Part shown: positions 36,155-64,000 of the stretch, one piece after another | How the letters are laid out: every line of letters begins with the position of its first letter | Position numbering within the stretch: the stretch's first letter is position 1 | Source: Siminovitchia terrae | GTDB lineage: Bacteria; Bacillota; Bacilli; Bacillales; Bacillaceae_C | NCBI RefSeq assembly: GCF_003605405.2 | Contig: NZ_QYTW02000010.1 | Coordinates: forward strand, 81,675 to 145,674 | Direction of reading: 5' to 3' | Length of the DNA: 64,000 nt | The notes under the pieces: generated by a model | The model's database searches: none | What the model was told of the DNA's origin: nothing | The model's input: only the letters and a program-made list of their open reading frames with translations | Position numbers and translations under genes: made by a program

Positions 36155-36222
36155 GTTAAATAAACTTAACATCGTTAAAATCATTGTAAAGTATATTTAA
36201 CGATATGTAAAGTATAGTTAAC
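36155..36222 (-). promoter_or_regulatory. Promoter and operator of the XRE/DUF2178 pair
   Basis: On the minus strand TTTACA (plus 36206-36211), 17-base spacer, TACAAT (plus 36183-36188). TGTAAAGTATATTTAAC (36185-36201) and TGTAAAGTATAGTTAAC (36206-36222) are direct repeats 21 bases apart overlapping the promoter, and GTTAAATAAACTTAAC (36155-36170) is a palindrome in the leader. Probably sites for the small XRE protein. Confidence 0.6.
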
Positions 36223-54854: not shown

Positions 54855-56207
54855 ATGAAAGAAGTTGACCTCATTGTCATTGGCGCAGGACCAGGAGGAT
54901 ATGTTTCAGCCATTCGGGCTGCCCAATTAGGCAAAAGCGTAGCAATCGTCGAAAGGAAAAAGGTGGGCGGTACCTGTTTAAATGTTGGCTGCATTCCTTC
55001 CAAAGCCCTTCTGAAACATAGTGAGCTTGTGGAAGAGATTCAAAAGGCGAATCGCTGGGGAATCCATACCGGTGAGATTTCCATTGATTTTCTAAAATTA
55101 ATGAAGCGGAAAGATCAAGTTGTACAGACTTTGGCAAACGGTGTTGAACATCTGTTAAAAAAGAACAACATTTCTATCTTCCAAGGCGAGGCATCTGTAA
55201 CGGAAGAGTTAGTGGTTACTGTTGGAGCTGAAAAACTAAGGGGAAAGGACCTTTTATTAGCAACAGGAAGCAAACCATTTATCCCGCCGATTAAAGGCTT
55301 GGATCAAGTAAACTATCTAACTACCGATACATTCTTTGATTTGAAGGAATTGCCGAAATCGCTGGTAATCATCGGGGGCGGAGTGATTTCAGTCGAGCTG
55401 GCATTTGCGATGGCTCCGTTAGGGACAAGCGTCACAATGATCGAAGTGGCCCCTGATATTCTATTAACTGAAGACCCTGATGCACGAAAAATCATTAAAA
55501 AACATTTACAAAAGAAACAAATACAAACGATTGCCCAAGCGGAAATTCAGGAAGTGAAAAATGGAAAGGTCCTCTTAGCGGGCAAGGAAATCCCATTTGA
55601 TACGCTCCTAGTCGCGACGGGAAGACAACCAAATCTTGAAGTTGCTGCCGATTTGAATTTGAAAATGGATGCTGCGAACAAGTTTGTGGCGGTCAATGAT
55701 TTTTATGAAACGAGCAAAAAACATGTGTATGCCGTTGGTGATTTAATCGGGGGCTATCAGTTGGCACATGCAGCGAGTGCAGAAGGCCTCATTGCAGTCC
55801 ATGCCATGAATGGTGAAGAGTCGCAGCCACTCGATCAAACGGACATTCCGAGATGTGTCTATACCCACCCGGAAATTGCTTCGTTCGGGTTGAACGAGGA
55901 ACAAGCGAGAAAGGCTAATTATGATGTGAAAGTCACAATTACTCCTCTTTCCGGAAATGCGAAAGCGATTGCAGAGGGAGAAACAGAAGGCTTTGTTAAA
56001 ATTATTTCCGATCATAAATACCAGGAAATTCTCGGGGCTGTTATTGTCGGTGCCAAAGCGACTGAACTCATTGGCGAAATTTTGGCCGTGAAACACTCAG
56101 AAGGAACAATGAATGAGCTGGCAAGCCTTATTCATGCTCATCCAGCTATTTCTGAAGCGATAGGCGAAAATGCGAATGTTTTATTTAAGCAAGCAATTCA
56201 TGCGTAA
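54855..56207 (+). CDS. acoL: Acetoin dehydrogenase complex E3, dihydrolipoyl dehydrogenase
   Basis: Re-oxidises the lipoyl groups of the E2 subunit with FAD and NAD+. 450 residues. FAD motif 'DLIVIGAGPGGYVSAIRAAQLGKSVAIVE', redox disulphide 'GGTCLNVGCIPSKALL', NAD motif 'SLVIIGGGVISVELAFAMAPLGTSVTMIE', second FAD contact 'VYAVGDLIGGYQLAHAASAEG', and the catalytic His-Glu in 'IHAHPAISEAIGENA'. There is no N-terminal lipoyl domain. First gene of the operon, where B. subtilis has it last. Confidence 0.92.
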   Translation: MKEVDLIVIGAGPGGYVSAIRAAQLGKSVAIVERKKVGGTCLNVGCIPSKALLKHSELVEEIQKANRWGIHTGEISIDFLKLMKRKDQVVQTLANGVEHLLKKNNISIFQGEASVTEELVVTVGAEKLRGKDLLLATGSKPFIPPIKGLDQVNYLTTDTFFDLKELPKSLVIIGGGVISVELAFAMAPLGTSVTMIEVAPDILLTEDPDARKIIKKHLQKKQIQTIAQAEIQEVKNGKVLLAGKEIPFDTLLVATGRQPNLEVAADLNLKMDAANKFVAVNDFYETSKKHVYAVGDLIGGYQLAHAASAEGLIAVHAMNGEESQPLDQTDIPRCVYTHPEIASFGLNEEQARKANYDVKVTITPLSGNAKAIAEGETEGFVKIISDHKYQEILGAVIVGAKATELIGEILAVKHSEGTMNELASLIHAHPAISEAIGENANVLFKQAIHA

Positions 56208-56288
56208 ACGGTGCAAGAACCCGATTAAATCATTGAAGATATGTATCATGCTTAAACATTACTGATTTTATAAAGGGAGGAATTAAGA

Positions 56289-57236
56289 GTGGAAAAGAAA
56301 GAAGTCCTTTGGATTTATCAAACGATGAATGAGATTAGATTTTTTGAAGAGGAAGTGCACCGTACGTTCGGAAAGGGGTTAATTCCAGGATTTGTCCATT
56401 TATATGCAGGAGAAGAGGCAGTTGCAACAGGAGTCATGTCCTTATTACAAGATGAGGATTATATTACAAGCACTCACCGCGGGCATGGTCATGCGATCGC
56501 AAAAGGCTGTGATATTAGAGGCATGATGGCTGAAATCATGGGCAAAAAAGATGGCCTTGGCGGTGGAAAAGGCGGTTCGATGCACGTTGCCGACGTTGGA
56601 AAAGGAATGCTTGGTGCCAATGGTATTGTTGGCGGCGGTTTTGGATTAGCGGCAGGAGCGGCGCTTAGTATTAAGACATTAGGCCGGGACAATGTCGCGG
56701 TTTGCTTCTTCGGGGATGGCGCTTCCAATGAAGGTACGTTCCATGAAGGATTAAACCTTGCTTCGATTTTAGACTTACCAGTTATTTTCGTTTGTGAAAA
56801 CAACCAATTTGGTGAAGGGACGCCATTTAGATATGCGAGTGCTTCTGAAACAGTTGCTGAACGTGCATTCGCTTATAATATGCCTGGCGTCCGTGTAGAT
56901 GGGATGGATGTAGAAGCCGTTTACAATGCAACAAAAGAAGCAATTGATAGGGCGAAAGCGGGGAAAGGGCCGACATTGATTGAATGTGATACGTACCGAA
57001 AATTTGGCCACTTTGAAGGAGACGAGCAAAAATACAAGACTGATCATGATCCGAATAAAGACCGTGACCCGATTATAGAGTTTCATGAAAAATCGATTAA
57101 AAATGGCTGGATGACTGAAAAAGAAGCAGATGACATTGAGGCAGCAGCAAAAGAAACGATCAAAGCCGCTGTGGCATTTGCTGAGGCAAGTCCATTACCA
57201 GATTTGTCTACTTTATATACGGATATCTTTGCGTAA
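56289..57236 (+). CDS. acoA: Acetoin dehydrogenase E1 alpha subunit
   Basis: Thiamine-pyrophosphate enzyme that splits acetoin to acetaldehyde and a C2 unit. 315 residues. 'FVHLYAGEEAVATGV', 'STHRGHGHAIAKG', and the TPP/Mg motif 'CFFGDGASNEGTFHEGLNLASILDLPVIFVCENN'. GTG start behind GGGAGGAATTAAGA. 81 bases after acoL, 18 before acoB. Confidence 0.94.
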   Translation: MEKKEVLWIYQTMNEIRFFEEEVHRTFGKGLIPGFVHLYAGEEAVATGVMSLLQDEDYITSTHRGHGHAIAKGCDIRGMMAEIMGKKDGLGGGKGGSMHVADVGKGMLGANGIVGGGFGLAAGAALSIKTLGRDNVAVCFFGDGASNEGTFHEGLNLASILDLPVIFVCENNQFGEGTPFRYASASETVAERAFAYNMPGVRVDGMDVEAVYNATKEAIDRAKAGKGPTLIECDTYRKFGHFEGDEQKYKTDHDPNKDRDPIIEFHEKSIKNGWMTEKEADDIEAAAKETIKAAVAFAEASPLPDLSTLYTDIFA

Positions 57237-57254
57237 GAATAGGAGGAATGAAAA

Positions 57255-58310
57255 ATGACAAAAAGAGAAGTAACTTTTATGACTGCTATTACAGAAGCAA
57301 TGACACAAGCAATGAGAAAAGATGAAACCGTCATCCTAATTGGAACAGATGTTGCCGGTGGTGCGGAAGTTGATCATTTAGTAAAAGACGATGGACGATA
57401 TGATGATGCATTTGGCGGCGTTTTCGGATTATCAAAAGGGATGGTCACTGAGTTCGGCCGCGGACGAGTGATTGATACACCGATCGCAGAGCATGGCTAT
57501 TTTGGAGCGGCTGTCGGGGCAGCAACAACCGGCTTACGTCCGATTGCAGAATTAATGTTTAACGATTTTATCGGATTTGCATTGGATCCAATTTTAAACC
57601 AAGGCGCGAAAATGCGTTATATGTTTGGCGGGAAGGCGAAAATCCCACTAACCGTCCGTACAGTCCACGGGGCAGGAGCAGGGGCAGCCGCACAACACTC
57701 TCAAACATTATATGGAATGTTCGGCTCAATTCCAGGTGTGAAAGTGGTCGTCCCATCCAATCCATATGATGCAAAAGGCTTGATGCTGGCGGCAATTGAA
57801 GAAGATAACCTCGTTGTCTTCTCTGAAGATAAAATGCTCTATGGCGTGAAAGGCGATGTACCTGAGGAATATTACACAATTGAAATCGGCAAAGCCAATG
57901 TCGTTCAGGAAGGAACAGACTTGACGATTGTTGCAATCGGAAAAATGGTTCAAGTTGCTCAAAAAACGGCTGAGACATTACAAAAAGATGACATTTCGAT
58001 TGAGGTCATTGATTTAAGAACGGTTGCTCCATGGGATCAAGAAACCGTACTAAATTCTGTGAAGAAAACAGGCCGTCTTATTGTCATTGATGAATCCAAT
58101 CCGCATAACAACACAGCAACGGATATTGCTTCCGTCGTAGCGGACAAAGCGTTTGATTATTTGGATGGCCCTATTAAAACTGTATGCGCACCGAATACAC
58201 CTGTGCCATTTGCGTACAACTTAGAACAAGCTTATATTCCGGATGTGAATAAAGTGATAACCGTTGCAGAGGAATTAATCACAGATTTGAAACAAACGGT
58301 TAGAAATTAG
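57255..58310 (+). CDS. acoB: Acetoin dehydrogenase E1 beta subunit
   Basis: 351 residues, transketolase-like partner of AcoA. 'FMTAITEAMTQAMRKDETVILIGTDVAGGAEVDHLVKDD', 'VIDTPIAEHGYFGAAVGAATTGLRPIAEL', 'VVPSNPYDAKGLMLAAIE' and 'LRTVAPWDQETVLNSVKKTGRLIVIDES'. RBS AGGAGGAATG. The TPP site forms at the AcoA-AcoB interface. Confidence 0.94.
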   Translation: MTKREVTFMTAITEAMTQAMRKDETVILIGTDVAGGAEVDHLVKDDGRYDDAFGGVFGLSKGMVTEFGRGRVIDTPIAEHGYFGAAVGAATTGLRPIAELMFNDFIGFALDPILNQGAKMRYMFGGKAKIPLTVRTVHGAGAGAAAQHSQTLYGMFGSIPGVKVVVPSNPYDAKGLMLAAIEEDNLVVFSEDKMLYGVKGDVPEEYYTIEIGKANVVQEGTDLTIVAIGKMVQVAQKTAETLQKDDISIEVIDLRTVAPWDQETVLNSVKKTGRLIVIDESNPHNNTATDIASVVADKAFDYLDGPIKTVCAPNTPVPFAYNLEQAYIPDVNKVITVAEELITDLKQTVRN

Positions 58311-58323
58311 GAGGTGAGTAAAA

Positions 58324-59556
58324 ATGAGTGAAGTCATTGTAATGCCTAAGTTAGGAATGACCATGACGGAGGGGACCATTGTCGAGTGGTACAAAGAAGT
58401 CGGAGACCCTGTAATTGAAGGCGAAGCGGTTTTAATGATTAGCTCGGAAAAATTAAACCAAGATGTTGAAGCGCCCGTTTCAGGGATTTTACTGACAAAA
58501 AATGCGAAAGTCGATGACCAGTTAGAGGTTGGTGCGGCGATTGCTGTGATTGGAGAAGAAGGGGAAGCTGTTATGAATGCCGGGGCTTCGAAACCTGTAG
58601 CCGTTGTTGAAACAGCACAAGCAAAGACCACTCCAGTGAGTGAGGCAGCAGCAAAGAGATCCAAAGGCGACCGTATTTTTATAACCCCATTAGCTAGAAA
58701 AATGGCGAAAGAACATCAACTGGATATTACGTTGATTGAAGGGACAGGTGGAAACGGCCGTATTACGAAACGGGATATCGAGCGTGCACTACAAGAGGGA
58801 TCGGCTGCAGCGGTAGTCCAAAGTAAATCTGAGACTGCTTCGGCTCCATCTATTAACGAAGAATTTGTTGGTGCAGGCCTTCGTCCAATGCGAAAAACGA
58901 TTGCGCGGAACATGCGTAGAAGCTTGGATCAAACCGCTCAATTAACGTTACATCGCAAGGTAAATGCCAATGCATTAATTGATTTCCAAAAGAGGCTTAA
59001 AAAGCAAATCGAGTCAGCTGATTTAGATGTAAAGCTTACGATTACTGTATTGGTGGCAAGAGCAGCAGTTCTCGCTTTACAAGAGCTGAAGCAAATGAAT
59101 TCTCACTATGCGGATGGCAAATTGACTGAATTTGATGAGGTCCATCTAGGTATTGCCACTTCTTTAGAGGATGGCTTAGTTGTCCCTGTTGTGAAGGATG
59201 CCCATCAAAAAACTATTGGCACGCTTGCTAAAGAAATCAAAGCGATTTCGACGAAAGCAAGAAACGGCGAAGCCGATGGAGATTTACTGACAGGCTCCAC
59301 GTTCACGATTACCAACCTTGGTGCAAGTGGAATTGAATATTTTACACCTATTCTAAACACACCGGAAACTGGAATTTTGGGCGTAGGTGCATTCCAAGAC
59401 GAATTAGTCTTGGACGAAGAAGGCAAAGTCCAATCTATTAAGAAAATTCCATTCAGCATCACCTTCGACCACCAAATCGTCGATGGCGCCACCGCAGCAG
59501 AATTCCTAAGTGTATTAACCAAATACATTGAAACGCCATTCTTGCTTGTATTCTAG
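58324..59556 (+). CDS. acoC: Acetoin dehydrogenase E2, dihydrolipoyl acetyltransferase
   Basis: 410 residues. Lipoyl domain at ~2-78 with the lipoyl lysine in 'LMISSEKLNQDVEAPVSG', E3/E1-binding domain at ~120-160 ('FITPLARKMAKEHQLDITLIEGTGGNGRITKRDIERAL'), catalytic domain from ~185 with 'TFTITNLGASGIEYFTPILN' and the active-site 'FDHQIVDGATAAEFL' (His and Asp kept; the usual Arg is Gln). It transfers the acetyl group to CoA. RBS AGGAGGTGAG. Last gene of the operon. Confidence 0.93.
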   Translation: MSEVIVMPKLGMTMTEGTIVEWYKEVGDPVIEGEAVLMISSEKLNQDVEAPVSGILLTKNAKVDDQLEVGAAIAVIGEEGEAVMNAGASKPVAVVETAQAKTTPVSEAAAKRSKGDRIFITPLARKMAKEHQLDITLIEGTGGNGRITKRDIERALQEGSAAAVVQSKSETASAPSINEEFVGAGLRPMRKTIARNMRRSLDQTAQLTLHRKVNANALIDFQKRLKKQIESADLDVKLTITVLVARAAVLALQELKQMNSHYADGKLTEFDEVHLGIATSLEDGLVVPVVKDAHQKTIGTLAKEIKAISTKARNGEADGDLLTGSTFTITNLGASGIEYFTPILNTPETGILGVGAFQDELVLDEEGKVQSIKKIPFSITFDHQIVDGATAAEFLSVLTKYIETPFLLVF

Positions 59557-60926: not shown

Positions 60927-62495
60927 TCAATTCCTATCATATTCCAGCATCCGGCTGTGCCAAATAATCGCTTGTTCTTCGTTTCCGGCTTTTCCGAATA
61001 AATCGATCAAGCATTCATACAAGTCTATGGATGGGGCAACGAGTACCGTTTTCTTTAATTGGCGAATCGCTGTCAAATAATCCTTTTGTTTTTTATAACG
61101 GTTGGCATTCCAAAGAACAAGATCAATTAAATCTTCTTCGATTTGTGTTTTCAGCTGGAGAAACCAGTCAATATCTAGTGGTTCAAAGAGACGCCTGGGC
61201 AGATTATTTAGAAGTTGATCAATCAGGTCTTGCTTTGTTTCAACGCTGGTTTCATGCTGTGCTTCCTGGATTTTTTCCATAAATGCCACCGCATCGCATT
61301 TTACTTCCCCTTGAAGGTAGACATGTGCACCATCCATGACTAAAAAGGAATGATCGCATCCCGGAATAGTTAAAAGCTGTCGCAAATAGGACAAATAAAC
61401 ACGCAAATTAGCTTTTGCCTGCTGAATCGGTGAATGGGGCCATAATGCTTCACAAATATGGTCCCGGGTTGTTGAGCGGTTTATTGTCAAATATGCAAGT
61501 AATGGTTTGGCGAAGCGTTTATTCCAGCCATTTACTATTTGATCACCTTCAATGAACACCTGAAATTGCTGGAGTATATCTATTTGTAACTGCTTATGAG
61601 CTTCAAGTTTGTGAAGCCATTCCGATTGAATTTGGCTTACATAATCAAGCATTGATTCATCCACTGAACGGATGAATGGATCTGAAATGGGTGGCGGTTC
61701 AACAGGTTCTGAAATAAAATCATTTATCAGCTGTGCGATTCCTTTGGGCTGATCCAATACAATAAGACTGGATGCGTTGGGAATCATCACAAGACGGCAG
61801 TGTCGTAAATGAATAGTATGCAGTCTTAGATAATGGGGTGGGAATAGTACTTCCTTTGAACCGGATAAAATGAGCGTTGGACAATGCAGATTTTTAATGT
61901 CCTTGATTGGATCAGCACTGACAGTTAAATCCATGACTTTCGCGTATAGATCAAATTCTATGTGATTGGCATATTCTTTTAACTTTGCCAGTTCTGGATG
62001 ACCTTTAGGTAAAGTGGAGGCCATGGCCTCCAAATATTCGAATGGAATTTCCCTTTTTCCTCCAGATAGTTCTTTTCGATGGGAACGGATGCTTTCTATC
62101 ATATGGGGAGGATGACAGGGCATTGACATGATCGTAAGGGATTTTACCTTATTTGGATATAAAGATGCGAATCCGGCGCCAATCAGTGCTCCCATTTGCC
62201 AGCCGATAATATGAGGAGAATTGATTTTTAGAGTGTCCAGGAGTTCTTGTAAGTCCATAATAAAGTGCCCTATCGTTAGGGCCGAAATGGGCTGATCATT
62301 GTCGCTTTTTCCAAAGCCTCTTAAATCGTAACGCAATATATGGTGACGATCACCTAAATAATGAAGAAGCGGGTCAAATGCACGTAAATCCACCGCATTT
62401 GCGTGAATGAGGACAAGAGTTTCCGCTTCTTTATTTGTTTGTGCTTCCTGTAGTATGTAATGAACTTTTTTTCCATTTATTTTTGTAATGGCCAT
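60927..62495 (-). CDS. Alpha/beta-hydrolase-fold sensor fused to SARP-type regulator (wHTH + BTAD)
   Basis: 522 residues from ATG at 62495 (AAAGGAAG upstream). Residues ~1-265 are an alpha/beta-hydrolase fold ('ETLVLIHANAVDLRAFDPLLHYL', 'ILRYDLRGFGKSDND', 'PHIIGWQMGALIGAGFASLYPNKVKSLTI'). The nucleophile elbow GxSxG is GWQMG with Gln100, the acid position reads 'SGSKEVLFPP', and the usual GH-x4-E-x-P is 'NASSLIVLDQP': no catalytic triad. Residues ~303-400 are an OmpR-like winged helix ('PLLAYLTINRSTTRDHICEALWP', 'ANLRVYLSYLRQLL'), and ~400-520 a BTAD/TPR-like domain. Likely a ligand-sensing activator. Divergent from the surface gene at 62896. Confidence 0.85.
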   Translation of the reverse strand: MAITKINGKKVHYILQEAQTNKEAETLVLIHANAVDLRAFDPLLHYLGDRHHILRYDLRGFGKSDNDQPISALTIGHFIMDLQELLDTLKINSPHIIGWQMGALIGAGFASLYPNKVKSLTIMSMPCHPPHMIESIRSHRKELSGGKREIPFEYLEAMASTLPKGHPELAKLKEYANHIEFDLYAKVMDLTVSADPIKDIKNLHCPTLILSGSKEVLFPPHYLRLHTIHLRHCRLVMIPNASSLIVLDQPKGIAQLINDFISEPVEPPPISDPFIRSVDESMLDYVSQIQSEWLHKLEAHKQLQIDILQQFQVFIEGDQIVNGWNKRFAKPLLAYLTINRSTTRDHICEALWPHSPIQQAKANLRVYLSYLRQLLTIPGCDHSFLVMDGAHVYLQGEVKCDAVAFMEKIQEAQHETSVETKQDLIDQLLNNLPRRLFEPLDIDWFLQLKTQIEEDLIDLVLWNANRYKKQKDYLTAIRQLKKTVLVAPSIDLYECLIDLFGKAGNEEQAIIWHSRMLEYDRN

Positions 62496-62767
62496 GATTA
62501 AACTTCCTTTTATGGGACCTGGCAAACCAGATTGAGCATTGTTGTCAGGTGATATGACTTTAATGTGATTTTGGCATGTTTTTCCTTAATAATGATGGGT
62601 TTAGTGTACATTGATTTAATGATATTGTAAATGAAATAAAGATAATTTTGAAAAAAAGCACTCATTAAATTAGGTTCCCCTATGTGTAGGTGGCTGTAAA
62701 TGCAAGGTACATGCTTAGAATCAGCTTTGCATAATGGCAAATACTGAAAACGAAGAAACAGCCTTTC

Positions 62768-62803
62768 CGTGTAACGTTCGTGTAACGCAGCATTTGATAT
62801 GAT
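62768..62803 (+). promoter_or_regulatory. SARP-type direct-repeat operator and promoter
   Basis: CGTGTAACG at 62768-62776 is repeated at 62779-62787, an 11-base period. A -10-like TATGAT (62798-62803) starts 11 bases after the second repeat. SARP proteins bind heptamer direct repeats with 11-bp period just before the -10 and act from that position. It reads toward the gene at 62896. The rest of the gap 62496-62767 is AT-rich without a gene. Confidence 0.6.
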
Positions 62804-62895
62804 GGGCGCAATATAGATAAAATTGGTGAACTTTGTAGTTTTTTTCACCATTTGTATCAATCACGGGCGTTCTTTATGTCGGAAAGGATTTGCAA

Positions 62896-64000
62896 ATGAA
62901 ACAAAATGTATCTATTTTTCTAGTTTTTATATTATTATTCTCTCTAGTTGAACCGGCTTTACAGGGAAAAGTGTATGCGGAAGATGATCAAACTGAAGTG
63001 ATATTAGCTAATGAGAGTGCCGAGCTTTCATCCTTTAATGGCAACCGTCCACAACGTACCAAGGGAATGACTGTGGTACAAGTGGGTTATCAAGATTGGG
63101 GGTCCAATGTAACATCTGTAAATGAGCTTGCTATTCGATTTCCTTTAAACCAAATTGATCGGGAAAGGCACATTGAATCGATTACGATGCAAATCGGAAT
63201 GACGGAATTACCAGTCGGAGATCATCTTTTTTTAAATCTATGGGGTGCTAACCAATATGGTTGGGAAAACGGCCCGTTTGTGCCACCGAAAAGTGTAACG
63301 CTTGTAAATGAAAGGCAAATTACAGAATCAACTGAAACAAATCTATCGTTTGATGTCACTGATTTTGTGAAATCACAGTTGAATCATCAAACAGCCACAT
63401 TGATTTTTGGAGGTCCTCGGGATTCTGGAGTTCCTGATGATCCTAATAAGCCGCGCATCATATCTTTATACACTAATAATAACGAAGAAGCAAAACGCCC
63501 ACGGTTAATTGTGAAATATAAAGAAGACATGCCTCCAACAGGTAAGCTTTCGATTGCAGGGAACGGGTATACGAATGATACGAAGGTGCAATTACAAATT
63601 GAAAGTGATGCGCCATCCAGTGATGGCATTGCAATGAGACTTTCCAATACTAAAGATGATTGGATGAGTTCGTGGGAGCCTTTTTCACCAACAAAGGAAT
63701 GGAAACTGGCTGAAGGAGATGGAAGTAAAACCGTTTTTTTGCAGTTTCGTAATCAGCGTGGAGTGGAATCGGATGTATACGAAGCGATGACGATATTAGA
63801 CCGGACGGCGCCGACAGGGACGGTGAAGATTAATCAAGGGGCGAAGTATGCGAATTCCCGTTTTAATGCCAGGCTTTACGTATCAGCAAATGATGGCGAT
63901 GGAATTGGGAACATTCAAGTTCAATTTTCAAATGATAAGAACACATGGAGCGATTGGCAAGGGTTCAAGCCTGATGCCCCATATATTTGGAGTCTTACAG
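62896..64000 (+). CDS. Secreted surface protein with DNRLRE-like domain (partial)
   Basis: ATG at 62896 behind GGAAAGGA; open to the window end (368 codons so far). Signal peptide 'MKQNVSIFLVFILLFSLVEP' with a probable cut near 'VYAEDD'. Residues ~40-215 resemble a DNRLRE-type beta-sandwich: 'TVVQVGYQ', 'ELAIRFPLNQIDRERHIESITMQIG', ending 'KRPRLIVKY'. From ~220 come repeated Ig-like units, with 'WSSW/WSDWQGFKP'-like segments and 'DRTAPTGTVKINQGAKYANS' typical of large adhesins or cell-wall-bound enzymes. Substrate or ligand unknown. Probably controlled by the divergent SARP fusion. Confidence 0.75.
   Translation, partial: MKQNVSIFLVFILLFSLVEPALQGKVYAEDDQTEVILANESAELSSFNGNRPQRTKGMTVVQVGYQDWGSNVTSVNELAIRFPLNQIDRERHIESITMQIGMTELPVGDHLFLNLWGANQYGWENGPFVPPKSVTLVNERQITESTETNLSFDVTDFVKSQLNHQTATLIFGGPRDSGVPDDPNKPRIISLYTNNNEEAKRPRLIVKYKEDMPPTGKLSIAGNGYTNDTKVQLQIESDAPSSDGIAMRLSNTKDDWMSSWEPFSPTKEWKLAEGDGSKTVFLQFRNQRGVESDVYEAMTILDRTAPTGTVKINQGAKYANSRFNARLYVSANDGDGIGNIQVQFSNDKNTWSDWQGFKPDAPYIWSLT

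Follow-up and report, generated by a model that had tools for sequence, protein, structure and literature searches.

A hydrolase-fold domain without a catalytic triad fused to a SARP half in Bacilli, and a putative operator facing SinI, polysaccharide and secreted-protein genes

What does an alpha/beta-hydrolase fold do once it has lost its catalytic residues, is fused to a SARP half and lies divergent from a gene for a large secreted protein? This question is raised by a locus of Siminovitchia terrae lying within a window of 64,000 nucleotides (G000:C2:81675-145674), the whole stretch of DNA analysed, to which all positions below refer. The reading preferred here, at a probability of about 0.75, is that the protein is a SARP-type single-component activator serving biofilm or surface genes and that its dead hydrolase domain gates it; the predicted promoter and the putative targets are assigned by comparison of related loci. 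The preliminary description of the locus was sound as an observation and too narrow in scope, having missed a whole family partly tied to SinI and polysaccharide genes. Among the papers listed by searches of the open literature, no description of a hydrolase-SARP fusion, or of a SARP acting on sinI, was recognised.

An open reading frame is present at 60927-62525 on the minus strand. Its likelier start is the ATG at 62495, which is preceded by AAAGGAAG and gives a regulator of 522 amino acids (60927-62495), with the TTG at 62525 as a possible alternative start. The regulator consists of an N-terminal alpha/beta-hydrolase-fold domain (residues 1-262; 61710-62495), a linker helix predicted in the AlphaFold2 model (residues 273-298; 61602-61679) and a SARP half composed of a winged helix and a BTAD (residues 299-522; 60930-61601), all on the minus strand. 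The Pfam families Abhydrolase_1 and Abhydrolase_6 match residues 26-139 (1.6e-17) and 27-255, respectively, and the remainder of the protein outside residues 26-255 has no significant Pfam match. The full-length AlphaFold2 model, built with 32 sequences, has a mean pLDDT of 90 and a pTM of 0.63, which makes the mutual placement of the two halves unsure. The 50 Foldseek matches listed for this model are hydrolase-fold proteins or designs based on them, esterases and lactonases included, with the 3-oxoadipate enol-lactonase PcaD (2xua) at rank 8 and an acyl-homoserine-lactone-degrading esterase (5egn) at rank 47. PcaD has the same fold (target TM 0.87), whereas the fusion lacks the nucleophile and the histidine and is joined to a DNA-binding half. 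A 70% identical relative of the regulator is encoded in Siminovitchia thermophila (G005; NZ_JAFBFH010000018.1).

Loss of the nucleophile, acid and histidine had all been claimed for the hydrolase domain. Two of these losses are confirmed: the nucleophile elbow is GWQMG (residues 98-102; 62190-62204, minus strand), with Gln100 in place of Ser, and Ser243 (61767-61769, minus strand) replaces His. The acid position is retained as Glu215 (61851-61853, minus strand), a conservative change rather than a loss. The same positions were compared in 64 non-duplicate fusion proteins, which were chosen for possession of both halves, and in 45 hydrolase open reading frames from the same search that have no SARP half. 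The 64 remained after removal of nine cut duplicates from 73 (L140, L141, L144, L147, L148, L149, L152, L153 and the first open reading frame of L049); the start of L175 was shifted to match that of its relatives, and three pairs at least 85% identical (L175/L176, L050/L189 and L064/L066) are still among them. Two of the 45 control frames are long (656 and 703 amino acids), and a SARP-half match was found in none of the 45 control loci. In the fusions the nucleophile position holds Gly in 47 and Ser in three, with Gln and Arg also occurring, the histidine position holds Asn (23), Phe (13), Ser (12) or His (4), and the acid position holds Asp (54), Glu (6) or Asn (4). Ser and His occur together in none of the 64, as against 41 of the 45 controls (Ser in 42, His in 41). 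The dead triad is thus a trait of the family, and an active hydrolase was rejected on these counts. Among 12 members drawn from the class, two of which were already in the 64 (L199 = L076, L201 = L083), Ser is present in one and His in none. Five residues, S124, P126, P129, P219 and P239, are 75-86% conserved in the fusions, whereas the commonest residue at these positions reaches at most 38% in the controls; the hydrolase domain of the fusions therefore seems to be under a constraint of its own.

The C-terminal half, which had been described as a SARP, was modelled alone by AlphaFold2 with a pLDDT of 91 and a pTM of 0.80. Foldseek returned six PDB matches for it at E<=0.001, all of them AfsR (8k60, 8hvr) or EmbR (2ff4, 2fez), and the fold shows the OmpR-type winged helix followed by a BTAD that defines a SARP. 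The assignment is therefore right by fold, despite the lack of a match to the Pfam BTAD family (PF03704) among the 24 families matched across 32 members. Pfam Trans_reg_C was matched in 11 of the 32, and the NCBIfam AfsR model gave weak matches in 11 of the 32, with the window protein far below its cut-off. A PDB profile search with the SARP half returned 15 matches, only TPR-type or other designed proteins, so the assignment is carried mainly by the fold.

The intergenic region of the window contains the sequence CGTGTAACG twice with an 11-bp period, ten bases before a TATGAT, exactly as the preliminary description had it. The upstream repeat is CGTGTAACGTT (62768-62778, plus strand) and the downstream repeat is CGTGTAACGCA (62779-62789, plus strand). 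Together they form a 22-bp box (62768-62789) that stops 8 bp short of the TATGAT at 62798-62803, which with its TGn extension at 62795-62797 makes up an extended -10, TGATATGAT (62795-62803, plus strand). In S. thermophila the second repeat (GTGTAACGC) and the -10 are conserved with equal spacing, and the first repeat is kept only in part (GGTGTTGCG). Exactly two copies of CGTGTAACG, at 62768 and 62779, occur in the 64 kb; shuffled windows held a mean of 0.09 copies and reached two in one of 100. With a looser pattern (up to 3 mismatches), the window genome gave 9 matches, compared with 11 for the backward pattern, so a wider regulon is not indicated and one convincing site is present in this genome. 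A weak operator-like match at 36184 of the window (plus strand; 12/16, with a -10-like box at spacing 10) is likely due to chance.

The core GTGTAACG, taken from the window only, was searched over the fusion loci as two copies at a period of 11 bp, with 12 of 16 bases matching and a -10-like hexamer 9-11 bp further on. This search gave 48 matches (duplicated loci and the probable chance match at 36184 counted), 47 of them at spacing 10, and none in 45 control loci (517 kb), which come from other taxa with another base composition. The same flanks, duplicates included, yielded 0 of 73 with the reversed core and averaged 0.05 over 20 base shuffles. A site lies within 700 bp of 39 of the 64 non-duplicate regulators, and no recognised site within that distance accompanies the other 25. 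All 42 sites are oriented outward from the regulator toward its neighbour (28/28 on the 5' side and 14/14 on the 3' side). The consensus, drawn from 41 of these sites owing to a flank limit and read on the outward strand only, is TGTAAYG-N4-TGTAAYG-N10-TANNNT, the fifth base being A in 30 of 41 sites and TG standing ahead of the -10 in 21 of 41. The -35 hexamers are poor, with no more than three of six positions matching in 36 of 41 sites. When the repeats were scored without requiring a -10, TANNNT stood at exactly +10 in 32 of 34 pairs, compared with at most five at each of the other distances between 4 and 18. The operator and its distance to the -10 thus recur in the loci of relatives. The preliminary description had made its reading depend on conservation of the repeats in related loci; they are conserved in the relaxed form TGTAAYG beside the 39 regulators, and the exact CGTGTAACG pair is not conserved. 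Beside the 59% identical relative in Ornithinibacillus massiliensis no operator was recognised within 700 bp; the best near-match in that genome follows a second fusion gene and precedes a SinI gene. In one locus (L169; G105:C26) an operator match was observed 264 bp before a gene for a 380-amino-acid protein whose start looks XRE-like by eye, on a contig different from that of the regulator.

The fusion is found across an order and a class, and a lineage-specific oddity was rejected on that ground. A profile of seven proteins matched 29 of 397 genomes of the order at E<=1e-60, and a profile of 32 proteins matched 14 of 398 genomes of the class, one of them as two pieces. Carriers among the best 80 of 362 loci include Ornithinibacillus, Domibacillus, Pullulanibacillus, Weizmannia, Lentibacillus, Oceanobacillus, Aquibacillus, Paenibacillus and Alicyclobacillus. 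Within Siminovitchia the regulator is present in two of six genomes (E<=1e-25), divergent from a large secreted protein in each. Genomes of family f15 (L190, L185, L192, L189, L052) carry two or three fusion regulators close by, often in tandem, and a degraded copy, interrupted by seven stops within about 415 residues, was observed in G006 (L016/L022). At genome scale, the pattern occurs in 23 of 397 genomes of the order, 21 of the 29 carriers and 2 of the 368 others (Fisher 2.4e-26), a comparison partly circular on the carrier side because the pattern was relaxed after sites had been seen in some of the same genomes; that the fusion and pattern searches covered the same 397 genomes is judged from equal numbers and shared handles. 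The backward control gave one site among the matches listed. In one of the two exceptions (G208), a fusion gene with a lower score lies 14 bp away from the site. The other (G080; L194/L145, site at G080:C2:107475) has no fusion match and a single SARP-half match elsewhere, in a frame of 1087 residues. A chance origin of the repeats was rejected on the window shuffles, on the reversed and shuffled cores on the flanks and on this genome-scale pattern. In the class draw, three of the ten new regulators have a site, all outward (flanks up to 1.5 kb a side), suggesting divergence of the operator in more distant taxa. These comparisons support the view that the regulator family and the predicted promoter occur together and that the promoter faces the neighbouring gene.

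The neighbours so indicated are of three recognised kinds. In the window, the putative target is the gene starting at 62896 on the plus strand (62896-64000), which runs off both the window and the contig. It has a signal peptide by eye, 1356 codons to the contig end and Big_13 Ig-like domains by Pfam, in agreement with the large secreted protein described earlier. This protein was found in two of the seven genomes searched, the same two Siminovitchia genomes that carry the regulator; it was not found in the other four genomes of the genus or in O. massiliensis, and the S. thermophila counterpart has no Pfam match. Large secreted proteins also follow a site in L077 (carboxypeptidase-regulatory-like and fn3 domains), L068 (sub-threshold Ig-type matches only, with 1279 of 1727 residues tested), L012 (no Pfam match) and L079, and lipoprotein-like genes were recognised by eye near sites in L182 and L037 (no Pfam match).

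SinI (PF08671), which in the SinI/SinR switch of Bacillus subtilis is the anti-repressor that counters the biofilm repressor SinR, is the second kind of neighbour and putative target. It adjoins 13 of the 64 regulators, 11 of them with a site, most of these 13 matches not being independent of the SinI profile, which was made from 11 sequences found mostly by motif. The curated PF08671 cut-off is passed by 10 of 10 neighbours tested (L067, L135 and L176 lie outside the tested set). The SinI gene is divergent in three cases and downstream in ten, and a SinR-like protein, recognised by eye, follows it in three genomes (G219, G365, G266). On the tree, the SinI label requires at least two changes, and 0 of 500 shuffles were as low; the target labels were assigned by hand, some without a Pfam test, with the EPS label least sure. 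These changes and the two positions of the gene suggest that the SinI linkage arose separately more than once. The SinI genes of the window genome lie away from the regulator and have no operator site, so the direct target there would be the secreted protein.

Polysaccharide genes form the third kind. Wzz was identified near sites by Pfam in L184 and L020 (1.7 kb away) and by eye in L189, L191 and L084, and CpsB/CapC by Pfam in L078 and also, at a long distance from the regulator, in G248 (L187). In L193 a distal FdtA gene is accompanied by sugar genes, and L073 has an epimerase. Site neighbours in L019, L063-L066 and L081 fit no class. Two kinds of proteins of 83-88 amino acids (L190:9356-9619, L192:7874-8131, L189:8442-8708 and L184:13357-13608) are encoded either next to the regulator or in the interval separating the operator from Wzz-type polysaccharide genes; one of each kind was searched in Pfam and had no match. 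A family of about 100 amino acids, possibly a small regulator, is encoded 72-77 bp past the operator in three genomes (L179:8151-8462, L180:2911-3213 and L181:6627-6923), with no Pfam match in the one of the three tested.

The fusion shares the wHTH-BTAD fold with AfsR of Streptomyces and EmbR of Mycobacterium, and its predicted promoters share with SARP promoters the paired repeats with an 11-bp period directly upstream of the -10 (about 8 bp from the 3' repeat in SARP promoters; here 10 bp from the 8-mer core and 8 bp from the 11-mer unit) and the poor -35. The 11-bp repeats of the AfsR promoter overlap the -35 and are occupied by two SARP molecules side by side (PMC10936776); the window box, 8 bp from its TATGAT, is close to that layout. 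The extra domain differs, being an N-terminal dead hydrolase here, a C-terminal NOD-TPR in AfsR and an FHA domain in EmbR (PMC10936776). Unlike AfsR and EmbR, the fusion occurs in Bacilli, has the repeat core TGTAAYG and has as its recognised targets matrix and surface genes; the antibiotic clusters that are typical, although not universal, of SARPs are not among the recognised neighbours, which are SinI, polysaccharide and secreted-protein genes.

By analogy, two SARP halves would bind the two 11-bp repeats, which would replace a -35 box. They would bring RNA polymerase to the TATGAT -10 and so turn on the divergent gene, which encodes the secreted surface or matrix protein. In other Bacilli, protein-operator pairs of this kind may act at sinI, at capsule or exopolysaccharide operons and at genes for large secreted proteins. 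It is distinctly unlikely that the protein is instead a repressor of the divergent gene, sitting on the -35/-10 region until freed by a ligand. The repeats do overlap the -35 position and stop about 10 bp before the -10, and a competing sigma-70-like promoter with a good -35 (TTGATA-18-TAAAAT, 62794-62823) lies just downstream, but the poor -35 of 36 of the 41 sites is typical of activator-dependent promoters, and AfsR, with its similar layout, is an activator (PMC10936776). Ownership of the repeats by another, global regulator, with the fusion gene nearby by accident, would account for the 25 members without a nearby site and for the site in G080. It is nevertheless highly improbable, given that the pattern occurs in so few non-carriers, one of them (G208) with its own fusion gene, and that every one of the 42 sites points outward from a fusion regulator. 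Activation over repression, binding as a dimer, gating by a ligand and a biofilm phenotype are what we infer for the preferred reading of a gated SARP-type activator.

Within that reading, the N-terminal hydrolase fold, its catalysis lost, would gate the SARP half, and it would have been kept as a regulatory module that probably binds a ligand. The plant gibberellin receptor GID1, which has lost the active-site histidine, offers a precedent for a route from hydrolase to receptor (PMC3531792). GID1 would resemble the fusion as a hydrolase fold turned non-catalytic receptor, ligand binding here being proposed by analogy; it keeps Ser and Asp and acts through protein partners, whereas the fusion mostly lacks Ser and has its DNA-binding domain in the same chain. 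A more specific form of the idea, in which the dead hydrolase would bind a diffusible signal of the lactone or ester type and gate the SARP half toward biofilm via sinI, exopolysaccharide or adhesin genes, as density or neighbour sensing parallel to Spo0A, is speculative and rather unlikely to hold in full. Somewhat less doubtful, and still the less probable view of the domain, is that it serves only as a structural or dimerisation scaffold, with a constitutive SARP half controlled by regulator abundance. The variable nucleophile (G, Q, R, S) and histidine (N, F, S, H) positions imply that a ligand, if there is one, may differ or be absent; the conserved S124, P126, P129, P219 and P239, however, point to a constraint peculiar to the domain. 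The universal presence of the domain among the 64 is no evidence against a scaffold, since they were chosen for both halves. That the domain has remained an enzyme, its triad merely relocated, is barely credible: an acidic residue (D or E) stands at the acid position of 60 of 64 and N at that of four, but Gly occupies the nucleophile position in 47, and Ser and His never occur together.

Activation of sinI is classically credited to Spo0A. The fusion and its operator may mark an undescribed way of turning on biofilm building, and the SinI neighbours suggest that the SinI/SinR biofilm switch has an input not suspected before. For one regulator family of Bacilli, the operator is now defined and both promoter and targets are predicted. 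The family is also a tractable example, within one protein, of an enzyme become a regulatory domain, with dozens of natural variants in which the triad positions and neighbours differ and the operator stays similar. If the more specific idea of a diffusible signal is true, the family would be a bacterial counterpart of the hydrolase-fold hormone receptors.

Other genes were observed in the surroundings of the regulator. An operon resembling those of acetoin or 2-oxoacid dehydrogenases (E3, E1 alpha, E1 beta and E2, by eye) lies near it at 54855-59556 of the window, and the neighbours listed in S. thermophila differ from these four genes. Elsewhere in the window genome (L011:3352-4527; G000:C20), near a gene for a long repeat-rich surface protein, another SARP-like protein is encoded, in which a receiver domain is recognisable by eye.
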